Source: Obelidium mucronatum (lineage: Eukaryota; Chytridiomycota; Chytridiomycetes; Chytridiales; Chytriomycetaceae). Taken from it: a stretch of DNA of 64,000 bases. Below the pieces are notes generated by a model. The model saw only the letters and a program-made list of their open reading frames with translations. It searched no databases and was not told the DNA's origin. How positions within the stretch are numbered: position 1 is the stretch's first letter; every line of letters begins with the position of its first letter. Of this stretch, positions 1-8,930 are shown in pieces. The stretch spans positions 1 to 64,000 of the forward strand of contig JAIVFH010000155.1 of assembly GCA_025765595.1 (NCBI GenBank). Reading direction: 5' to 3'. The position numbers and the translations under genes were made by a program.

Positions 1-1414
1 AAGAACGGCATCATAAACAACAATACCATTTCTCAACTCCTGCATGCATTCTGATATAATTTCAGCCATTTCAATTGCTGTGGCATGTTTTGATGTGCAG
101 ATAAAATATATATTTTCCGGCTTTTGAGCTTCTTTGAATGGCATTCCAGCAAGACTAAATAGAAGAGACTCGTATTTGTTCCACTTCTTAGGAAACATTG
201 CCACTTGTGTCATCATTAAATATAGTTATTGGTACATTGAAAACTTGCAGGCCATTCGCTTTCAATCTCCATGGTGAACCACTTGAAACTGACTGCTTAA
301 GACTAATTTCACAGCCTTCAAAAAAGGAATATTTGAGATGGTCACCATGAATTCTTTTGAGAGTTTCTTTGGCACATTTGTATACGTCTGTGTCAGAAAT
401 AAAGATAATGTCTTCAATCAGGTCTGCACCATAGCCATGAATAAAGAATTCTCCATTTGATTTTACAAATGTCTTTGGTACAATGAAGCTGCCGTCCTTT
501 AATTTATACAATTCTCCTTGATATATATCAAAATCCAGTCGAAGCATAATTGATAGGAATACTGTCTGTCCAGCGAGGAGAATGAAAATTCTCATGAACA
601 GTTGGCGTTACAGTTGGAAATAAGTTTAAAATTTTTCTGATTTCTGGATTGGCAAACGCTAGACGTATTGTTGTTCCAATGGGAATGTAATAAACATCCT
701 TCCCTTCAATGTTTTTGCAAACTGGCTGGACACTTAGAAGTTGACGTACTTTCTTCTGTAAGGAGCGAAGCTTCCCATGTGTTACGTTAGAACCTTGAAT
801 GTTGTGGGAATAGATGATGGCTTCCTCTTGTTGTCGAGAGAATGCTGTTGCCCCAACATTTGTAAACATTTCAGTCAGCACAAACTCAAGATCAGGTATC
901 AGAAGGGGCGAATTCAGACTTGGAAAGAACAAAATTCTGTGGTTCGGACCATTTCGACAACTGCTGGCTCAAATAGTTCATCATTATCATCTGTAGACAG
1001 GGGCTCGTCTACATTGCCATCACTACTGTGGGAATTGTCATTCACATAGTCCATTGCATCTTCTGAATCAGTATCCTCAAAGTTCTGAACAAGTTCTATC
1101 AGCCCAATCTGGGCATCAGTATTCTGGGCGTCAGTATTCTGGGGTTGGTCAGTATTCTGTGTGTCAGTATTCTGGGTAACAGAAGTGGCTGCCAAGTCCT
1201 CAATCTGTACAAGACTACATTGAGGACTGTTGTGACTATGTTCAGGACTATCGTGACCGTTAAGTGCCTTTTTTTGTGCAAGCTGATGCTTTTGAGTTGC
1301 AACATGTTTCATGTGGGAAGAAAATGAGTGACTTTTGAAGACTGCCTGGCATACTACGCAAATCCATCCAGAACTATCTGGGACAGGTTCCCACATTCTT
1401 TGCCACAGCTCCAT
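1..1414 (-). pseudogene. Degenerate Plavaka/KDZ-type DDE transposase (5' part)
   Basis: Three overlapping reading frames on the minus strand together look like the N-terminal part of one transposase. The first (1414-914) starts with a zinc-finger-like segment containing C-V-V-C and later H-M-K-H-V, followed by an Asp/Asn/Thr-rich tract with repeated QNTD units. The second (to 528) carries a helical segment ending in HENFHSPRWTDS. The third (to 188) ends in FNDDTSGNVS, after which the next frame reads KKWNKYESLLFSLAG out to the left edge. An acidic DD-SGN-KxWNK block of this kind is what I know from Plavaka/KDZ-type transposases. The element is broken by at least three frame changes and is cut by the window edge, so it is not expected to be active. 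Family call is from remembered motif similarity, not a search. Confidence 0.6.
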
Positions 1415-1902
1415 TGAATATCTATGAATTAATCATATTAGCAAGAATCAGCGAATAACAGTTTGTGGTTGAACAGCAGCAGAATGAAGGAGAAAAAAAG
1501 AGGATCCATAGAAAGAAATGAAAACACCTCCGACTGCAGTTGAATACAGAAAAAAAAATGAACACAGCCATTGGTCACAGACAAAATAAAAAATGAAAAC
1601 ACCGCCTTTGGGGGTTCCCATGAACGAATCCACCGCCTTCGGCGCACGCCTTCGGCGGAAGAGACCCGCCTGCGGCAGCTGCAGAATAAAGAAATAACAG
1701 AATATGCCTTTGCTATTCAATTTACAATAAATATTAATATTTACCTTGATCAATGAGAGCCCTTCAAGGCACTATGTGATTTATTTATGTGTGATTTTTC
1801 CGAAGGAGTTTTAAGATAGATCAGGTGTTTTTTGGTTTTTCTTAAATTCGTGTCACGCGTTTTTTTGTTGTTGTTTTTTGAAAAAATAGTTGCAAGAAAA
1901 AG
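1415..1902. repeat. Non-coding stretch with GC-rich palindromes
   Basis: No convincing gene. AT-rich sequence is interrupted at 1606-1680 by a GC-rich patch with two nested palindromes, CCGCCTTCGGCG (1633-1644) and CGCCTTCGGCGG (1647-1658). The same core occurs at 28328-28338, inside a VAC8 intron. The rest (1700-1900) looks like promoter or leader sequence of the gene starting at 1903, with a T-run just upstream. Confidence 0.5.
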
Positions 1903-2541
1903 ATGGGAACTCGAGGTGGTTTATTAAGTGTCCTTGCTTCTCCCTCTCCTCTACAGCCCTCCCCTCTACAGCCCTCGCTGCTACAGCCCTCTACTCTACA
2001 GCCCTCCCCACCATCTTGTCATTCACAGTTGCAGCCCAATACCCCTTTGCCAGCAGTTGGAGGGGAAGAAAATTTGAGGCTGCGTCATCGCAGCTTCACT
2101 GAGAGCATCAATGAAATCATGAAGCTCACCAAGCAGCCTGAAGCAAAGCGGCAAAAGGTGGAAGACGTCTTCAAGGTATGATTTTCAGTTTTGTTTGTAG
2201 GGTGCTTACTTGTTAATTTAGCTTACCCCAGACGAAAGATCAACAGCAACTGTGCTCCTTCTTCAGGGCATTCTCAATCAATCCAATGACGCATCTGTGC
2301 TCTTGAAGTGGGATGTAAGTGTTTGCTTATTTAATGTTTATCTTATCACCCACCCCTTAAACAAAAACAGTACGAAGACAAGCCAAAAGTGTCCTGCTTC
2401 TTCTTCTCGAAGCTCGGCAGTTCATCCTTAGTTGCTGTCACTAAGAACTTCAAAACCAAAAAAGCGCACCTGTTCAAGTGGTTCAATGAGGAACCTTTCA
2501 ATGTTGCAAATTGTGTCCAAGAGTGCATGGACTATTTGAAG
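1903..2541 (+). pseudogene. Unrecognised protein, exons 1-3 (5' half of a gene split by an inversion)
   Basis: Exon 1 (1903-2175) begins MGTRGG, has a repeated LQPS tract and then a region around FTESINEIMKLTKQ. Exon 2 is 2222-2314 and exon 3 is 2371-2541. Both introns are GT-AG (46 and 56 nt) and keep the frame (phase 0). Exon 3 ends ...CMDYLK exactly at an 8-bp sequence, ATTTGAAG (2534-2541), where a MITE begins. Reading on into the MITE gives HVL and a stop at 2551-2553, which is probably fortuitous. The same 8 bp, inverted, lies at 6036-6043 and there abuts a clean GT donor. The exons from 5986 down to 5194 continue the protein in frame, giving 412 codons in total. I do not recognise the protein family. 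Confidence 0.7.
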
Positions 2542-3072
2542 CACGTACTATAGCGAGCGGCACTCCCGATTCGGACCCCGATTCGGCCTCCTAGTCGGGA
2601 AACGATTCGGAGTCCGACTAGGGTCCTAATAGGGCCCTATTAGGAGCAGTCCCGAATAGGGGCCGAATCGGAATGGCCAATAGGCCAATTGGCGCTCCTA
2701 GCCGCCCCTTAATGTACTCCTAACCTGTTTCCAGTAGGAGATTTCTATTTTTTCCTTTTATTTGAAGGGGTTTTCTTTCTCCTAGTCGGACTTCCAAATA
2801 GGACATAGCATTAAATGAGAAAATGCACATTAACTACTGAAAACCTTTTAAAAGATGGCTATTAGAACTCCTATTAAGAGCTAACAAATGCTATAAGGAC
2901 AGGTCCGATTGGCTCATTTGCAATTAGGAGCGCCACTAGGACCCCTAATAGCGCCCTATTAGGCTCCTAATCGGTCCAGCTCCTAATAGGGTCCGATTCG
3001 GACTCCTAGTCGGACTCCTAGCCGGGCCCTAATTGGACCCCGAATCGCGCGTGCCGCTCGGACCCCGGGCTG
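2542..3072 (+). mobile_element. hAT-like MITE, copy A (531 bp)
   Basis: The left end is CACGTACTATAGCGAGCGGC and the right end, read inward on the other strand, is CAGCCCGGGGTCCGAGCGGC. The two ends share CGAGCGGCAC-C-CGATTCGG as an imperfect terminal inverted repeat. The inside has no coding capacity and is built from near-palindromic runs such as CCTAATAGGGCCCTATTAGG. Copy B (6044-6574) has the same length in opposite orientation and is near-identical. The flanking 8-mers do not match each other (ATTTGAAG on the left, ACTCAAAC on the right), but each matches a flank of copy B. An 8-bp target duplication and a CAG end are typical of hAT elements; the superfamily call is inferred. Confidence 0.85.
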
Positions 3073-3560
3073 ACTCAAACCACGTACTCAAACCCTTGTC
3101 AACGCCATTGCCAGATTTATAAGACTTTCAGGGATACCTATTCAAATATTCCACGACAATTCCATCATTGGCCAATTGACGACACAATGGGGTCTTTCGA
3201 AGTTTAAAGCTGCAAGAGCGGCAGTCGCCATTGTATGCTCAATATTCACGCTGTGCGGATTCTACATCTCGCTTGAAAAATGTCAGCTGACACCAGCGGA
3301 AAAAGTGAATTACCTCAGGCTCCTTGTTCACCTCGCAAATCAATACTTCATGATTACAGCAGAAAAGCAAAAGTCCTTCCTGCTTCTGGCATTGGACATC
3401 AAAAAGGACACCCAGAAGATCAAACCCATTCACATCAAAAAGTTAGAAAAATTAGCAGGGAAATGCGCACATCTATCCTTTTGTGTACAAGGAGGAATGG
3501 CCTTCACGCGAACGTGTTTTCCAGCAGCATTTTGTGCGCATAGGGATTGGAGCAAGCGGC
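3073..3560 (+). pseudogene. DIRS-type reverse transcriptase, 3' fragment
   Basis: The frame through 3101-3574 reads NAIARFIRLSGIPIQIFHDNSI, then LCGFYISLEKCQLTPAEKVNYL, and LAGKCAHLSFCVQGGMAFTR. This matches the palm/thumb layout of DIRS/Ngaro reverse transcriptases as I know them: GI-x(n)-DD/DN-S, then GF-I--EK--L-P---V-YL, then the GKL-hxsfav connection. The catalytic YLDD box is altered to FHDN, so it is probably inactive. The 5' part is missing here and lies inverted at 6575-8930. The coding similarity stops near 3560, where an antisense KDZ fragment begins. Confidence 0.7.
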
Positions 3561-4170
3561 AGGCTCTATTGTAGAAAACAAAGGTAGGTACTTCCCCCAT
3601 TTTTGCGAAACAGTGGCACAGGAAGCGAGAAATGAATGTAGAAGACTCAAAAGAGTACATCTTAGAGATTCCAATGATCATGCCGCAGCTCTGCACAGCC
3701 ATAAAGATTCCAGGTAGAAACCGCTGCTTCAGACTGTAGTTGAACCACTGGTCTGCTACTAACTCCTTTTCCTGTGTATCAATGTGTACTGTAGATGTTC
3801 GCGTTTTCTTGGACTTTTGCGTGGCTTTAAACTCCTTATTCCATTCCTGGACAGTCGCGTTGTGAGAGCTGAGTCCGCAGGTATGCAAAACAGTGTCTGT
3901 CTTTTTTTGCTTGCAGCCAGAGATGATGCGCTCATTCTTCAGCTGGGCTTGTGATGAGCAGAACAATGTGTTCACACCAAGAATAGGCAACACACAGCCA
4001 GGCACAGAACACAAGAGATGTCCCATAACTATCCCATCCATTACACCGCCAGAGATTTCTTTTCCATTGTAAAACTGGTGGCACCTGTTGCCACTTCTTG
4101 CCAAAGTAGACAGTCATGAACGTGACGTATTCCCGCATTGCGGGCCTGATGTCATGAATAGAATCACCTG
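3561..4170 (-). pseudogene. KDZ transposase-associated cysteine-cluster fragment
   Basis: The minus-strand frame shows GVMDGIVMGHLLCSVPGCV, then FCSSQAQLKNERIISGC and TCGLSSHNATVQEWNKEF. This spacing of D-G-H-C-C-C-C-C resembles the CxC6-type cysteine cluster of fungal KDZ transposases. It continues with CGMIIGISKMYSFESST and VFYNRACRLLQSLCAQ, again typical of that family. Both ends are truncated: one abuts the DIRS fragment near 3560, the other stops shortly before the MITE at 4196. The frame stays open antisense to the DIRS fragment down to 3430, but that overlap is treated here as belonging to one element or the other, not both. Confidence 0.6.
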
Positions 4171-4195
4171 TTTTTGGTAAGTACGGACCCAGAAA

Positions 4196-4490
4196 CAGCC
4201 CGGGGTCCGAGCGGCACGCGCGATTCGGGGTCCAATTGGTCCGATTCGGACTCCTAATCGGATCCGAATCGGACTGAGAGCGATTCGGAGCCTATTTGGC
4301 CCCAATTGGAGCTCCAATAGGAATTCTGATTGAAAAAAACGCGTTTTTTCATTGCTCCTAATCGGATTTATTGCTCCTAATAGGAGCGCTACTAGCGTTT
4401 TTCATTCCTAATAGCAAACCAATTGGACCCATTAGGAGCCCTAATGGGGTCATTAGGAGCCCTAATTGGGAGTTTTCACCCTATAATGAC
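4196..4490 (-). mobile_element. hAT-like MITE, copy C (one-ended)
   Basis: Starts with the same terminal sequence CAGCCCGGGGTCCGAGCGGC as copy B, followed by CACGCGCGATTCGGGGTCC, and then has the family's CTCCTAATCGGA / ATTAGGAGCCCTAAT composition. The opposite terminal repeat is not found; similarity fades near 4490. It is more diverged from A and B than they are from each other. Confidence 0.7.
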
Positions 4491-5190
4491 CCTTCGTAAG
4501 AACAAATTATTCCGCTGCATGATGCAGACTATAGCAACTTTACCTTCCATTGCAATATAAACTTTTAACATAATTATCAAATGAAATCTGCACTTGTACA
4601 TATTTCCATCCCCATTAAAATTTCATGGCAAATTTTTTTCCCATCATCAATTTTTCACCCTGCATGTTTATTAACAATTTTAATACGTGCCTGAGAGAGA
4701 AAATTTAAAAATTTATCACACAAGCCTAACTTTGAATACTTGCCTCACCAGATCATCTTCAAAGTCACTGCCATTTCTTAACTGCACTATCTCAACTTAT
4801 ATAAATTCTTGATTGTATGCAAACATAACTACTTATTTTGTAGTAGCAAACATACACTCCTGGGTTAATAAAAGCTTCCAGAATATTTATGAAGATATTT
4901 GAGAATATTTTTTATTTAATATTGGCGAATGTCGTTTGCTGACTGAATCCCCGAAGATTTTTTGGGAATATTCTAGAATATCCCAAGAATTCTCTGGAAG
5001 GAATTAAAAAAAGGTCCGGCAATATTAATGAAAGATATTCCAGAATATTTCTAGAGAATTATTGTGGAAGAACGAAGGAATAAATATGCCTGAAGACTTT
5101 TAGTGGAAATCTACCACAAGACGTTGATAAATAATCTTCGAAAAGACTTGCAAACTTAAGATTTGTAAAGCAAGAGAACAAAAAGATTTC
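4491..5190. other. AT-rich non-coding stretch with GAATATTC palindromes
   Basis: No open frame worth calling. Between about 4870 and 5070 there is a cluster of GAATATTC- and AGAATATTCT-like inverted repeats (for example near 4970-4985 and 5035-5050). They resemble alternating nGAAn/nTTCn units, but in such AT-rich DNA this may be compositional. Confidence 0.4.
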
Positions 5191-5193
5191 TAA

Positions 5194-6043
5194 TTAAAGA
5201 TTCGTAAAGCAACTGAAACTGATTTTATCGTCATCGTCATGTTCAAGTGCAGGTGGGAATAAAGTGCTGCCGCTGCTACTGCCACTGCCGCCGCTGCCGC
5301 CACTGTCGCCGCTGCCACTGCTGCCGCTGCCGCCGCTGCTGCCGCCGCTGCCGCCGCTGCCGCCGCTGCTGCCGCTGCTGCCGCTTCCACTGCCGCTGCC
5401 ACTTCCGCCGCTTCCACTGCCGCTGCCACTGCCACTGCTGGTCCCAGAATTCGTCGACATATTCAGAGACGGGGTGAGCTGGTCCGCAGATCCAGCGGTG
5501 GCTTCTTCAATATCGTACAATGTCTTGAGTCCTTCAAACATCTGCTGTCGATAACCAGAGCCCCTTTCGTTGAGCACCGCAATGAGTGCCAAAATAAACG
5601 GCCAAAAATCCGTGTGTTTGAGGGGAGTTTAGTCTGTTGGTGGTGGTCCGTAAAACCGACGAGTGGCCCAAATCTATTCAGAGTTGAATGAAAAATGCAA
5701 AACAACTCAAGACCACTAACCAACATGCGGACCTGGTCAGCACGCTCCTCTTCTACTGCATTACGGTGAGGGTCCTCCTTAAAGATTACAGCAATCGCTT
5801 CTTTGAGTCGAATTGGAAATGGGGCCAACTCGGCCAACTGGCAACACAAAGTTAAATCAATAAAAATATTAAATTGTTAATTACCGCAGTTTTTAGATTG
5901 TGGCGTAAAGTGGTGAGTACACCAGTCACCTTGACTAGAACACCTTCTTCTTGACTTGGACTCAAACTCAATGATGTTGGATCGCTCTACAATGTCAAAA
6001 ACAATGAATAAAATAGAAAAACAAAAGAAGATCACCTTCAAAT
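5194..6043 (-). pseudogene. Unrecognised protein, exons 4-6 (3' half of the gene split by inversion)
   Basis: Reading leftward from 6043: the 8-mer ATTTGAAG joins a GT-AG intron (6035-5987). Then come exon 4 (5986-5885, SDPTSLSLSPSQEEG...), a 47-nt intron, exon 5 (5837-5721, LAELAPFPIRLKEAIAVIF), another intron, and exon 6 (5673-5194). All junctions are phase 0 and continue the frame of the exon ending at 2541. Exon 6 has one in-frame TAA at 5631-5629, just before TPLKHTDFWPF. After that stop the frame stays open through NERGSGYRQQMFEGLKTLYD, a long Ser-Gly microsatellite tract (about 5440-5270) and an acidic tail. The stop and the separation from exons 1-3 make this a pseudogene. Confidence 0.7.
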
Positions 6044-6574
6044 CAGCCCGGGGTCCGAGCGGCACGCGCGATTCGGGGTCCAATTAGGGCCCGGCTAGGA
6101 GTCCGACTAGGAGTCCGAATCGGACCCTATTAGGAGCTGGACCGATTAGGAGCCTAATAGGGCGCTATTAGGGGTCCTAGTGGCGCTCCTAATTGCAAAT
6201 GAGCCAATCGGACCTGTCCTTATAGCATTTGTTAGCTCTTAATAGGAGTTCTAATAGCCATCTTTTAAAAGGTTTTCAGTAGTTAATGTGCATTTTCTCA
6301 TTTAATGCTATGTCCTATTTGGAAGTCCGACTAGGAGAAAGAAAACCCCTTCAAATAAAAGGAAAAAATAGAAATCTCCTACTGGAAACAGGTTAGGAGT
6401 ACATTAAGGGGCGGCTAGGAGCGCCAATTGGCCTATTGGCCATTCCGATTCGGCCCCTATTCGGGACTGCTCCTAATAGGGCCCTATTAGGACCCTAGTC
6501 GGACTCCGAATCGTTTCCCGACTAGGAGGCCAAATCGGGGTCCGAATCGGGAGTGCCGCTCGCTATAGTACGTG
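6044..6574 (-). mobile_element. hAT-like MITE, copy B (531 bp)
   Basis: Reverse-complement copy of the element at 2542-3072, same length and nearly the same sequence. It starts CAGCCCGGGGTCCGAGCGGC and ends GCCGCTCGCTATAGTACGTG. Its left flank is CTTCAAAT (6036-6043), the complement of ATTTGAAG, and its right flank is GTTTGAGT (6575-6582), the complement of ACTCAAAC. Neither is duplicated at its own other end; both are found at copy A instead. Confidence 0.85.
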
Positions 6575-8930
6575 GTTTGAGTCAGAACAGTTCCATCCAA
6601 ATACTAGAGCTGTGGCAACAAAGTAATAAAGGTTATCATCCTCCGGTAGTCTTCCTTGTCCCGAAGTATTTTTCTGGATTGTGGATGTATTGAGAGGTTC
6701 ATGAAGCACGATTTGAAATCCACCACTGTTGCGTAGCTGTTGATCCCAGTCACTAAATTCCCCAAAGTCAGCAGGTTGAACTCTTTTGGCTTGCGCCACT
6801 GGTTTAAGCAGGTCATCAAATTTTGGCATCTTCTGACGACTCCGGTTGGTGATACAACCGTTGGTATAAGCGATTGTGATGTGGTTTGGATGCTGCGGAA
6901 TAGTATTCTGATGCCGCTGTCAACTTCTTCTTTTCTCTTTTTGCGTGCATAAGCCTCCTGTTTTGGCAATAGGATGTGGTTTTTGAATATTTTTGGTTTT
7001 GGGGCGACAACTGTGTGGTGTTAGGAATTCTTTGATTCAGACTCCTTCCGTAAGCCACAATAAAATTGTCGTTGATTGAGTCCATGTTGACACGTTAGCT
7101 TTTCCCCCAACCTGGCATTTACGCATCCTGCTACAAAGTGGTTTGGGACTTTGAAGATGTTGTGTTCTATTCGCCGACTCGGGATTGCTGAGCATATTGA
7201 CGAGTTGAGCGCATAGCTCTGAGTACGCTGGTGTTGGGTGGCGGTTTCCCTTTGCGTCGCACTACTTGTGTGGTGCTTGGTTGGTGGATGTCTCCCAGAA
7301 TTTTAGCTCGCCGGCAGGGCCTCCACGTACCCCCCTTATACATGTGCTGAGAAACAAAAATTAAGTAAAGAAATAAATTTGGTTATGAATGTGGTGTTGA
7401 AGTTGGTGGCTATCTTCTGTTGTCGCAATGGTTGTTTTGGTTGTTTTGACGATAATAATTGCCGTAGCGGTATTGGTCCCTTCTTTCCTCGTGTTGATGA
7501 TGTCTGAGATGTCCACCCCCGTTGTGTCCGTTTCCGTTTCGGTTGCCATGGTAGGCCTGTGTTGGTGGCCTCCTCCATGAAATCTTTGATGGTCATGTTG
7601 TTGTTTGTGGTGTCTTCCCGCTTCCCCTAAACGCAGTTGAAACGTTCTGCTCTTTGGCTCGCTTCATCATTTGATCGAATGTTTTGCTGTTGGAAGAAGT
7701 CCTGGAATGTTGTTGCAATGTGTGTGTTGTTGAAGGTTGCGTTGAGTGGGTGAGTTATTAATTTGAAAAACTGTTGAAGGTTGTCCTTCCATTTGACGGC
7801 GTCGGTTTTGGCAATGAGCAGCAAGCTGGCTGTGTTGACCTGTTCTTTGTAATCTGCGTCGTTTAAAAGTCCCGCTTTAAGCACGGCATTCTTTATCGCG
7901 TGTTTTGACAATGGTAAGTAGATGAACACATTGGAAATCCACTGCACTATTGCAGACATTGTTTGCATCGTTATTGATTTTTGCCACCGCCTTAAGAAAA
8001 TCCCCTATCTTTTTGTTGTTTTGAATTAAGTCAATGTGATGTTGACGAAGGGGTTGATGGGCAAACAGAGGTTTGGTGTTGGCGTGTTTGGGGTAAGGTC
8101 GAAGTGAGGTCGGATTTTTGCTGGGTCGTATGGTCGTGACGTTGAATTAATTACTGCGTAAGTTCCCATCCTCTTGCATTTGAGCTGTGTCTAAGTTGAC
8201 AATGAATGTCTCCGCAACTGTATTGTGAGGTAGGAGAAGGGGTTGAGTGGATTTTGGTATTTCCAACGTCGGAACGTTGCCTGAATAAATCAGGACCATT
8301 GCTCCGATCAGATTTTTGGAAGGAGCACCTGCTATTGGCGCAGGTCTCCAACCCTGTCTGCCTTTGCTTTGGCGCGCTCAAGTTTGGGGAAATCTATTGT
8401 TTCCCCACTCTTTTGACCCCTTTGTGTGCGTGTTGTGTGTTTACTAACCTTGATGGATCTGAACAGGAGGTGAGCCAATTGAATGCCACAGTCGTACTTG
8501 GACTGTGGTTTTGGTGGCTGCTGCTGGTTGACCGGATGTGGGTTGTGCTGCTGCTGCTGATGCTGTTGCTGTTGCTGTTGCTGCTGTGGTTGCTGTTGTT
8601 GTTGTTTTTTGTTGTTGTTGTTGTTGTGGCTGCTGCTGGTTGGCGTAGTTTTGTCCGAAAAGGTGGTGGGGTAATGGTTGGAATCCTTGAAAGAAGACAA
8701 AGTAGTAGTTGCTGTCTTGTTGGAGCATGTGCGCTGCTATGTTGTTTATGATGTAGTTAGTTAATGATAGCCTCTCACTTTGCCTCAACGCCGTTGTTGT
8801 TGGCCATTAATGCAGGAATCTGGGCTATCCTGAAGAAGACATCGCATTGAGCTGTTGTTACGCCGCTCATCCAAACTTTGTTAATGAACGTGTTTTGAGT
8901 GGTGAGGGGTGGGTTGTACGCAGCAGCCAT
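6575..8930 (-). pseudogene. DIRS-type retrotransposon, 5' part (Gag-like region and start of RT)
   Basis: On the minus strand a start codon at 8930-8928 opens MAAAYNPPLTTQNTFINKVW. A Gln-rich tract follows (8640-8530), then a Gag-like frame (7968-7627) and a basic Arg/Lys/Gln segment (7596-7340). The RT region near 6800-6620 reads SYATVVDFKSCFMNLSIHPQ and SRKILR, the first catalytic-Asp motif of DIRS reverse transcriptases. It stops at the MITE with ALVFGWNCSDSNHVL, the FG motif that precedes the catalytic box. Several frame breaks are present. The continuation, in opposite orientation, is the fragment at 3073-3560. The element was split by the same event as the neighbouring gene. Confidence 0.65.

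Follow-up and report, generated by a model that had tools for sequence, protein, structure and literature searches.

Crossing-over between inverted copies of a repeat is the textbook route to a chromosomal inversion, and long, close, nearly identical inverted arms favour recombination. Among the closest described systems, inversion 2z3 of Drosophila buzzatii was made by the element Galileo, for which ectopic recombination is well documented; its target duplications are 7 bp long, the copies at its breakpoints are chimeric, and non-inverted chromosomes serve for comparison (PMC2775673, in the part of the paper available). The same part of that paper describes hybrid element insertion, a close mimic of ectopic recombination, in which two starting copies at the same chromosomal site leave copies that are identical, not chimeric. 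Here, a comparable configuration is described in the chytrid Obelidium mucronatum, in a window of 64,000 nt (the whole stretch analysed, i.e., positions 1 to 64,000 of contig JAIVFH010000155.1, hereafter C155) of an assembly of 48.3 Mb in 694 contigs. In this window, two copies (A and B) of a 531-bp miniature inverted-repeat transposable element (MITE) bound a segment of about 3 kb, which has very probably been inverted relative to an earlier order, and a host gene and a DIRS-like retroelement are split by the same rearrangement. Exchanged target duplications at transposon-made inversions are already known; the Obelidium locus is a clean new case.

Alignment of 2542–3072 with the complement of 6044–6574 yields 530 identical positions of 531, the single mismatch being at position 43, so the two oppositely oriented elements lie exactly where a preceding interpretation of the locus, made from the letters alone (the sequence-only reading), had placed them. 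Copy A is flanked by ATTTGAAG on the left and ACTCAAAC on the right, and the complement of B by ACTCAAAC and ATTTGAAG; one element stands at each breakpoint, and the 8-bp duplications are exchanged exactly, as had also been noticed. Upon scripted re-inversion of 3073–6043, both elements obtain perfect duplications (8/8 for either 8-mer) and thus become the two ordinary insertions predicted earlier. With equal base frequencies, a chance match of the two given 8-mers together is expected with a probability of about 2.3e-10.

The significance of these flanks was assessed against a sample of the element family comprising 40 of the 239 first-look candidates, i.e., A, B, and 38 other copies fetched with their flanks. 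Full length (from position 1 to at least position 528) was displayed by 36 of the 40, with L063, L064, L072, and L075 dropped, and collapsing the copies with common flanks left 29 independent full-length loci, A and B included, which make 406 pairs. Perfect 8-bp duplications border 22 of the 29, which makes 8 bp the normal length of duplication for the element; the seven loci lacking a perfect duplication are A, B, L041, L045, L046, L056, and L060. In the pairwise comparison of flanks, A and B were the sole exchanged pair among the copies compared, the other five flank-sharing rows each joining copies whose common flank stems from duplication of one locus.

The host gene lends itself to the same re-inversion. 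With splice sites giving 412 codons, its five introns measure 46, 56, 49, 47, and 47 nt and are all in phase 0; the 49-nt intron restored by the re-inversion is the third, and it starts exactly after the duplication. The element had been said to have landed on the border of exon 3 and intron 3, and this holds, since exon 3 ends in the duplication and the intron follows directly. The claim of a rejoined six-exon gene of 412 codons is upheld as to the joins and the intron phases but not as to the length: the 412-codon count (final stop included) crosses an in-frame TAA at codon 267, whereas the later acceptor of the deposited exon 6 (5541) makes exons 1–6 a stop-free reading of 367 codons. The TAA may be a sign of decay, or it may merely be intronic. 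Because of the inverted arrangement, the locus is represented by two predicted gene models: the last three residues of P0001 are read from the element and are followed by a stop, while P0002 begins, judging by the junction in the sequence, with 85 residues of DIRS-like flank and one element codon preceding exon 4. No Pfam family was returned for the rejoined host protein, scanned as far as the TAA, and the search for further relatives of the gene gave four matches outside the window, spanning 26 residues and belonging to a dispersed repeat. A dispersed repeat (4853–5573), present also in contigs C95, C103, C252, and C157, overlaps the 3′ part of the gene; its copies in those contigs are approximately 73–85% identical in two main blocks.

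The second interrupted unit is a reverse transcriptase resembling long open reading frames (ORFs) of one element family in the same genome. This family is presumably DIRS, a name carried over from the sequence-only reading and from general knowledge; the Pfam scan of the DIRS-like piece in the window gave no match. When the longest ORF of the related locus L079 is compared with the re-inverted segment, all three tblastn matches are colinear and on one strand, whereas in the window as it stands the two halves occupy opposite strands 3 kb apart. The comparison within the genome gave 28 matches, one of them the window itself; 19 non-window loci (L078–L096) were examined, and the eight remaining matches were without a locus. 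Both halves are on one strand, 99–105 nt apart, in 18 of the 19 loci, the exception being L084, which has no good second half (the best match, with an E of 0.014, is on the other strand). The loci fall into a few repeated families, so they cannot be counted as 18 independent witnesses; the close comparison is provided by L078 to L083, L085 to L096 being distantly related (30–35% identical in the first half). The DIRS-like element of the window was already decayed, its reading frame being interrupted within the right-hand piece and once more at the MITE. Hence, the earlier claim of a rejoined retrotransposon is sustained by protein homology as regards the order of the pieces, not as regards an intact frame. 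At the DNA level, the search for relatives of this piece returned 27 other matches, all within parts of 3517–3573, which represent a different repeat.

Overall, the inversion, with the present order as the derived one, is a well-supported conclusion: the duplications are exchanged, an intron and its exons are rejoined, and the related DIRS-like ORFs have the uninverted order. The coordinates of the features involved are collected in Table 1.

Table 1. Features of the inverted locus in the Obelidium mucronatum window
Feature	Position	Strand	Basis or remark
Exon 1 of split host gene	1903..2175	+	Exons 1–3 = residues 1–179 of deposited protein P0001
Exon 2 of split host gene	2222..2314	+	Splice reconstruction
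Exon 3 of split host gene, ending at the border of MITE A	2371..2541	+	P0001
Target duplication X, ATTTGAAG, left of A; final 8 bases of exon 3	2534..2541	+	
MITE copy A, 531 bp	2542..3072	+	530/531 identical to the complement of B; further copies in the genome
Inverted segment between the elements, 2971 bp	3073..6043		Re-inversion restores the duplications and the interrupted units
Target duplication Y, ACTCAAAC, right of A	3073..3080	+	
CACGT (first five letters of the MITE), then a further ACTCAAAC	3081..3093	+	Sequence
DIRS-like reverse transcriptase, continued inside the inversion	3089..3520	+	tblastn, L079 ORF residues 310–457
Exon 6 of split host gene, deposited model	5194..5541	-	Longer form from 5673 holds the in-frame TAA
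Exon 5 of split host gene	5721..5837	-	P0002
Exon 4 of split host gene, within the inverted segment	5885..5986	-	Exons 4–6 = last 188 residues of P0002
Second copy of X, ATTTGAAG on the - strand, left of B; intron donor next on the - strand	6036..6043	-	
MITE copy B, 531 bp, orientation opposite to A	6044..6574	-	Alignment with A
Second copy of Y, ACTCAAAC on the - strand, right of B	6575..6582	-	
DIRS-like reverse transcriptase piece outside the inversion	6584..6996	-	tblastn, L079 ORF residues 162–278 and 282–305

The mechanism of the inversion is a separate question, and the key to it is the similarity of the two elements. A and B are the closest of the 406 pairs (99.81% identity, with a median of 94.4% over all pairs). 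Within their subfamily, defined as the loci more than 94% identical to A (n = 21 loci), the 209 other pairs have a median of 96.2% and a maximum of 99.25%. Two states common to A and B are present in none of the 27 other loci. The sole difference, a T at position 43 of B, recurs in three other copies, so it may predate the event and need not be a new mutation. Crossing-over alone keeps the differences between the copies; therefore, the near-identity requires either a local mother–daughter pair, or gene conversion, or hybrid element insertion. The pair L069 and L071 (contig C271), 98.87% identical and fifth closest of the 406, is situated about 10.8 kb apart, as local transposition would give.

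The favoured explanation is that two copies of the non-autonomous DNA element resided in opposite orientation about 3 kb apart, one at the exon 3/intron 3 border of the host gene with the duplication ATTTGAAG, the other in the already decayed DIRS-like retroelement with the duplication ACTCAAAC. The two would have been mother and daughter copies from a local hop, or would have been homogenized by gene conversion, and homologous crossing-over between them would have flipped the intervening segment. This crossover route, with local mother–daughter copies or conversion included, is regarded as the probable one. Several results weigh against it. The near-identity of A and B, if anything, speaks against a crossover between copies that had inserted independently, and one difference in 531 bases leaves chimerism of the two elements illegible. 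By DNA search, the 5′ half of the gene occurs once in the genome, so no uninverted relative of the locus came to light. The search of about 5.8 billion proteins returned the gene's own two halves as the sole matches, so there is no orthologue to confirm the exon join.

Hybrid element insertion, in which there was a single element beforehand and the other of the two sites was still empty, is a possible, if clearly less likely, origin of the same scars. The joins worked out by hand for this scenario yield the same exchanged flanks, and it accommodates exchanged duplications together with copies that are nearly but not fully identical (530/531). One event would suffice instead of two, and the rank of A and B among the 406 pairs, their two private shared states, and their single difference suit it as well. 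Still, it requires an active transposase acting on sister ends, of which there is no sign here; the near-identity could also stem from local transposition followed by crossing-over, or from conversion between close inverted repeats, and the T that distinguishes B from A, being found in three other copies, need not have arisen anew. In view of this alternative and of the near-identity itself, the description of the locus as a "proven", clear fossil of ectopic recombination is weakened for the mechanism, not for the inversion, which the exchanged duplications continue to carry. Other forms of aberrant transposition, whether through the reversed ends of two separately located elements or through a composite in which A, the segment, and B move as a unit, appear extremely improbable. 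Alternative transposition of Ac/Ds does produce inversions in maize (PMC8225341, in the part available), and for copies at separate sites the stated outcome is deletions or duplications (PMC2775673, likewise in part); no deletion or duplication is visible here apart from the extra CACGT and ACTCAAAC on the DIRS side, though a small loss is possible. The composite was rejected, as its outer 8-mers differ where matching ones are expected, and so was non-reciprocal conversion of the flanks, both 8-mers being exchanged exactly.

An assembly error would place the true order in the uninverted state, the segment having been flipped by the assembler between the inverted repeats. Nearly identical inverted repeats are a classic site of such flips, the sequencing method was not found in the literature, and the part of PMC12115818 available is without mention of assembly. 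Against this, the window and the 76 loci fetched contain no N, the shortest contig seen is 10,039 bp long, as in what looks like a long-read assembly, and elements of 6 kb and more have paired ends within single contigs. Furthermore, the matching duplications on both sides in 22 of the 29 sampled loci mean that the copies of this element are not generally mis-joined, and random mis-joining at this repeat family was rejected on the same count. An artefact is, hence, considered very unlikely. At the same time, 6 of the 29 loci are present two or three times in the assembly, and eight comparisons of such duplicate copies displayed 98.3–100% identity over alignments of 845–3,535 columns, so the assembly may contain both alleles of some regions, or recent duplications; the inversion may be heterozygous. 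An unlikely variant is a live invertible cassette, in which recombination between A and B keeps them identical while the segment flips, and both orientations coexist in the species or culture. If so, the orientation would join or break the host gene, and the broken state would yield the retroelement–host fusion model through a splice donor situated where the element begins.

The DIRS-side flank holds a further detail absent from the earlier account: it reads ACTCAAAC, CACGT, ACTCAAAC. The right flanks of L046 (CACG) and L056 (CACGTAC) likewise open with element-start letters, and none of the three copies having such letters 3′ of the right end (A, L046, and L056) has an ordinary single duplication on that side. 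Of the 22 perfect loci, none has CACG from the first base of the flank or immediately behind the duplication; in L071 it occurs one base later. Such letters may have been left behind by a tandem or second element, and in the four-letter case a coincidence is conceivable. The full-length copies L041 (C7) and L045 (C153), which have unrelated 8-bp flanks, are possible further rearrangement breakpoints. A partner of L041 was sought via its other flank, and none was found: the search gave two matches, both differently flanked and each containing three mismatches.

MITEs with 8-bp target duplications occur in the hAT, P, and KDZ superfamilies. The affiliation of the present element was approached via its ends, which were found (with at most three mismatches) at 76 forward and 75 reverse places for the left end and at 60 and 71 places for the right end. 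Pairing was carried out on 100 listed places for each (of 151 left and 131 right), and the pair counts given below apply to these listed ends. It joined 64 left ends to the nearest right end: 30 pairs span 519–534 bp, 13 span 1,088–1,303 bp, and 21 span 3.7–8.8 kb, including eight at 6.1–6.35 kb. Since three of the 21 long pairs share one right end in contig C11, the pair counts are approximate. None of the 41 hits of the hAT-dimerisation domain (PF05699) starts inside the 64 paired elements, a domain that is split, degenerate, or situated in an element beyond the listed ends being possible, and the same is true of the 16 KDZ hits (PF18758; 15 over the cut-off). Accordingly, the label "hAT-like" has been abandoned: the 8-bp duplications fit it, yet the longer elements with the same ends contain no start of a hAT-dimerisation hit. 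An ORF beside the left end of the long pair L117 displayed a sub-threshold Myb/SANT-like match. Elements of about 6.2 kb with both ends of the 531-bp MITE reside in contigs C121, C189, C242, C25, C28, C291, and others, and they are candidates for its autonomous parent.

The inverted segment harbours other repeats as well. A third element fragment (4196–4720) has the same first 42 bases as B, and its relatives pair to approximately 1.1–1.3 kb with the same ends. The ORF at 3430–4104 on the minus strand matches the CxC6 cysteine cluster family (PF18721, E 2.2e-11), which is linked to KDZ transposases; the part of this ORF at 3517–3573 recurs, whole or partial, at 27 other places.

The locus documents the splitting of a gene by a short non-autonomous element in a chytrid, and the inversion accounts for two public gene models, namely P0001, which breaks off within the element, and P0002, in which host exons are fused to a piece of the retroelement. 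Because A and B are nearly identical, a few related strains would allow a crossover to be tested against aberrant transposition in one step. No chytrid example stood among the papers listed on such inversions with MITEs, fungi, or chytrids, and no first is claimed.

Compared with the known systems, the element resembles other MITEs with 8-bp duplications in being short and non-autonomous and in having imperfect terminal inverted repeats starting with CA; unlike hAT and KDZ elements, its longer same-end relatives among the listed ends are devoid of a hAT-dimerisation or KDZ hit. As far as the available descriptions go, the similar flank pattern and the near-identical copies are features common to this locus and to hybrid element insertion or the alternative transposition of Ac/Ds in maize; in contrast to those systems, no transposase, active element, or sister product was seen here. 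With Galileo 2z3, as described in the available part of its source, the locus has in common two oppositely oriented copies of one DNA element at the breakpoints and exchanged target duplications, and it differs in its 8-bp duplications, near-identical copies without legible chimerism, 3-kb segment, and split gene. A further difference is that the earlier order is read here without an uninverted chromosome; the paralogous DIRS-like ORFs are informative solely for the order of that element. Because the two breakpoints and the four copies of the duplications have all been preserved, a single genome suffices to read the former arrangement.

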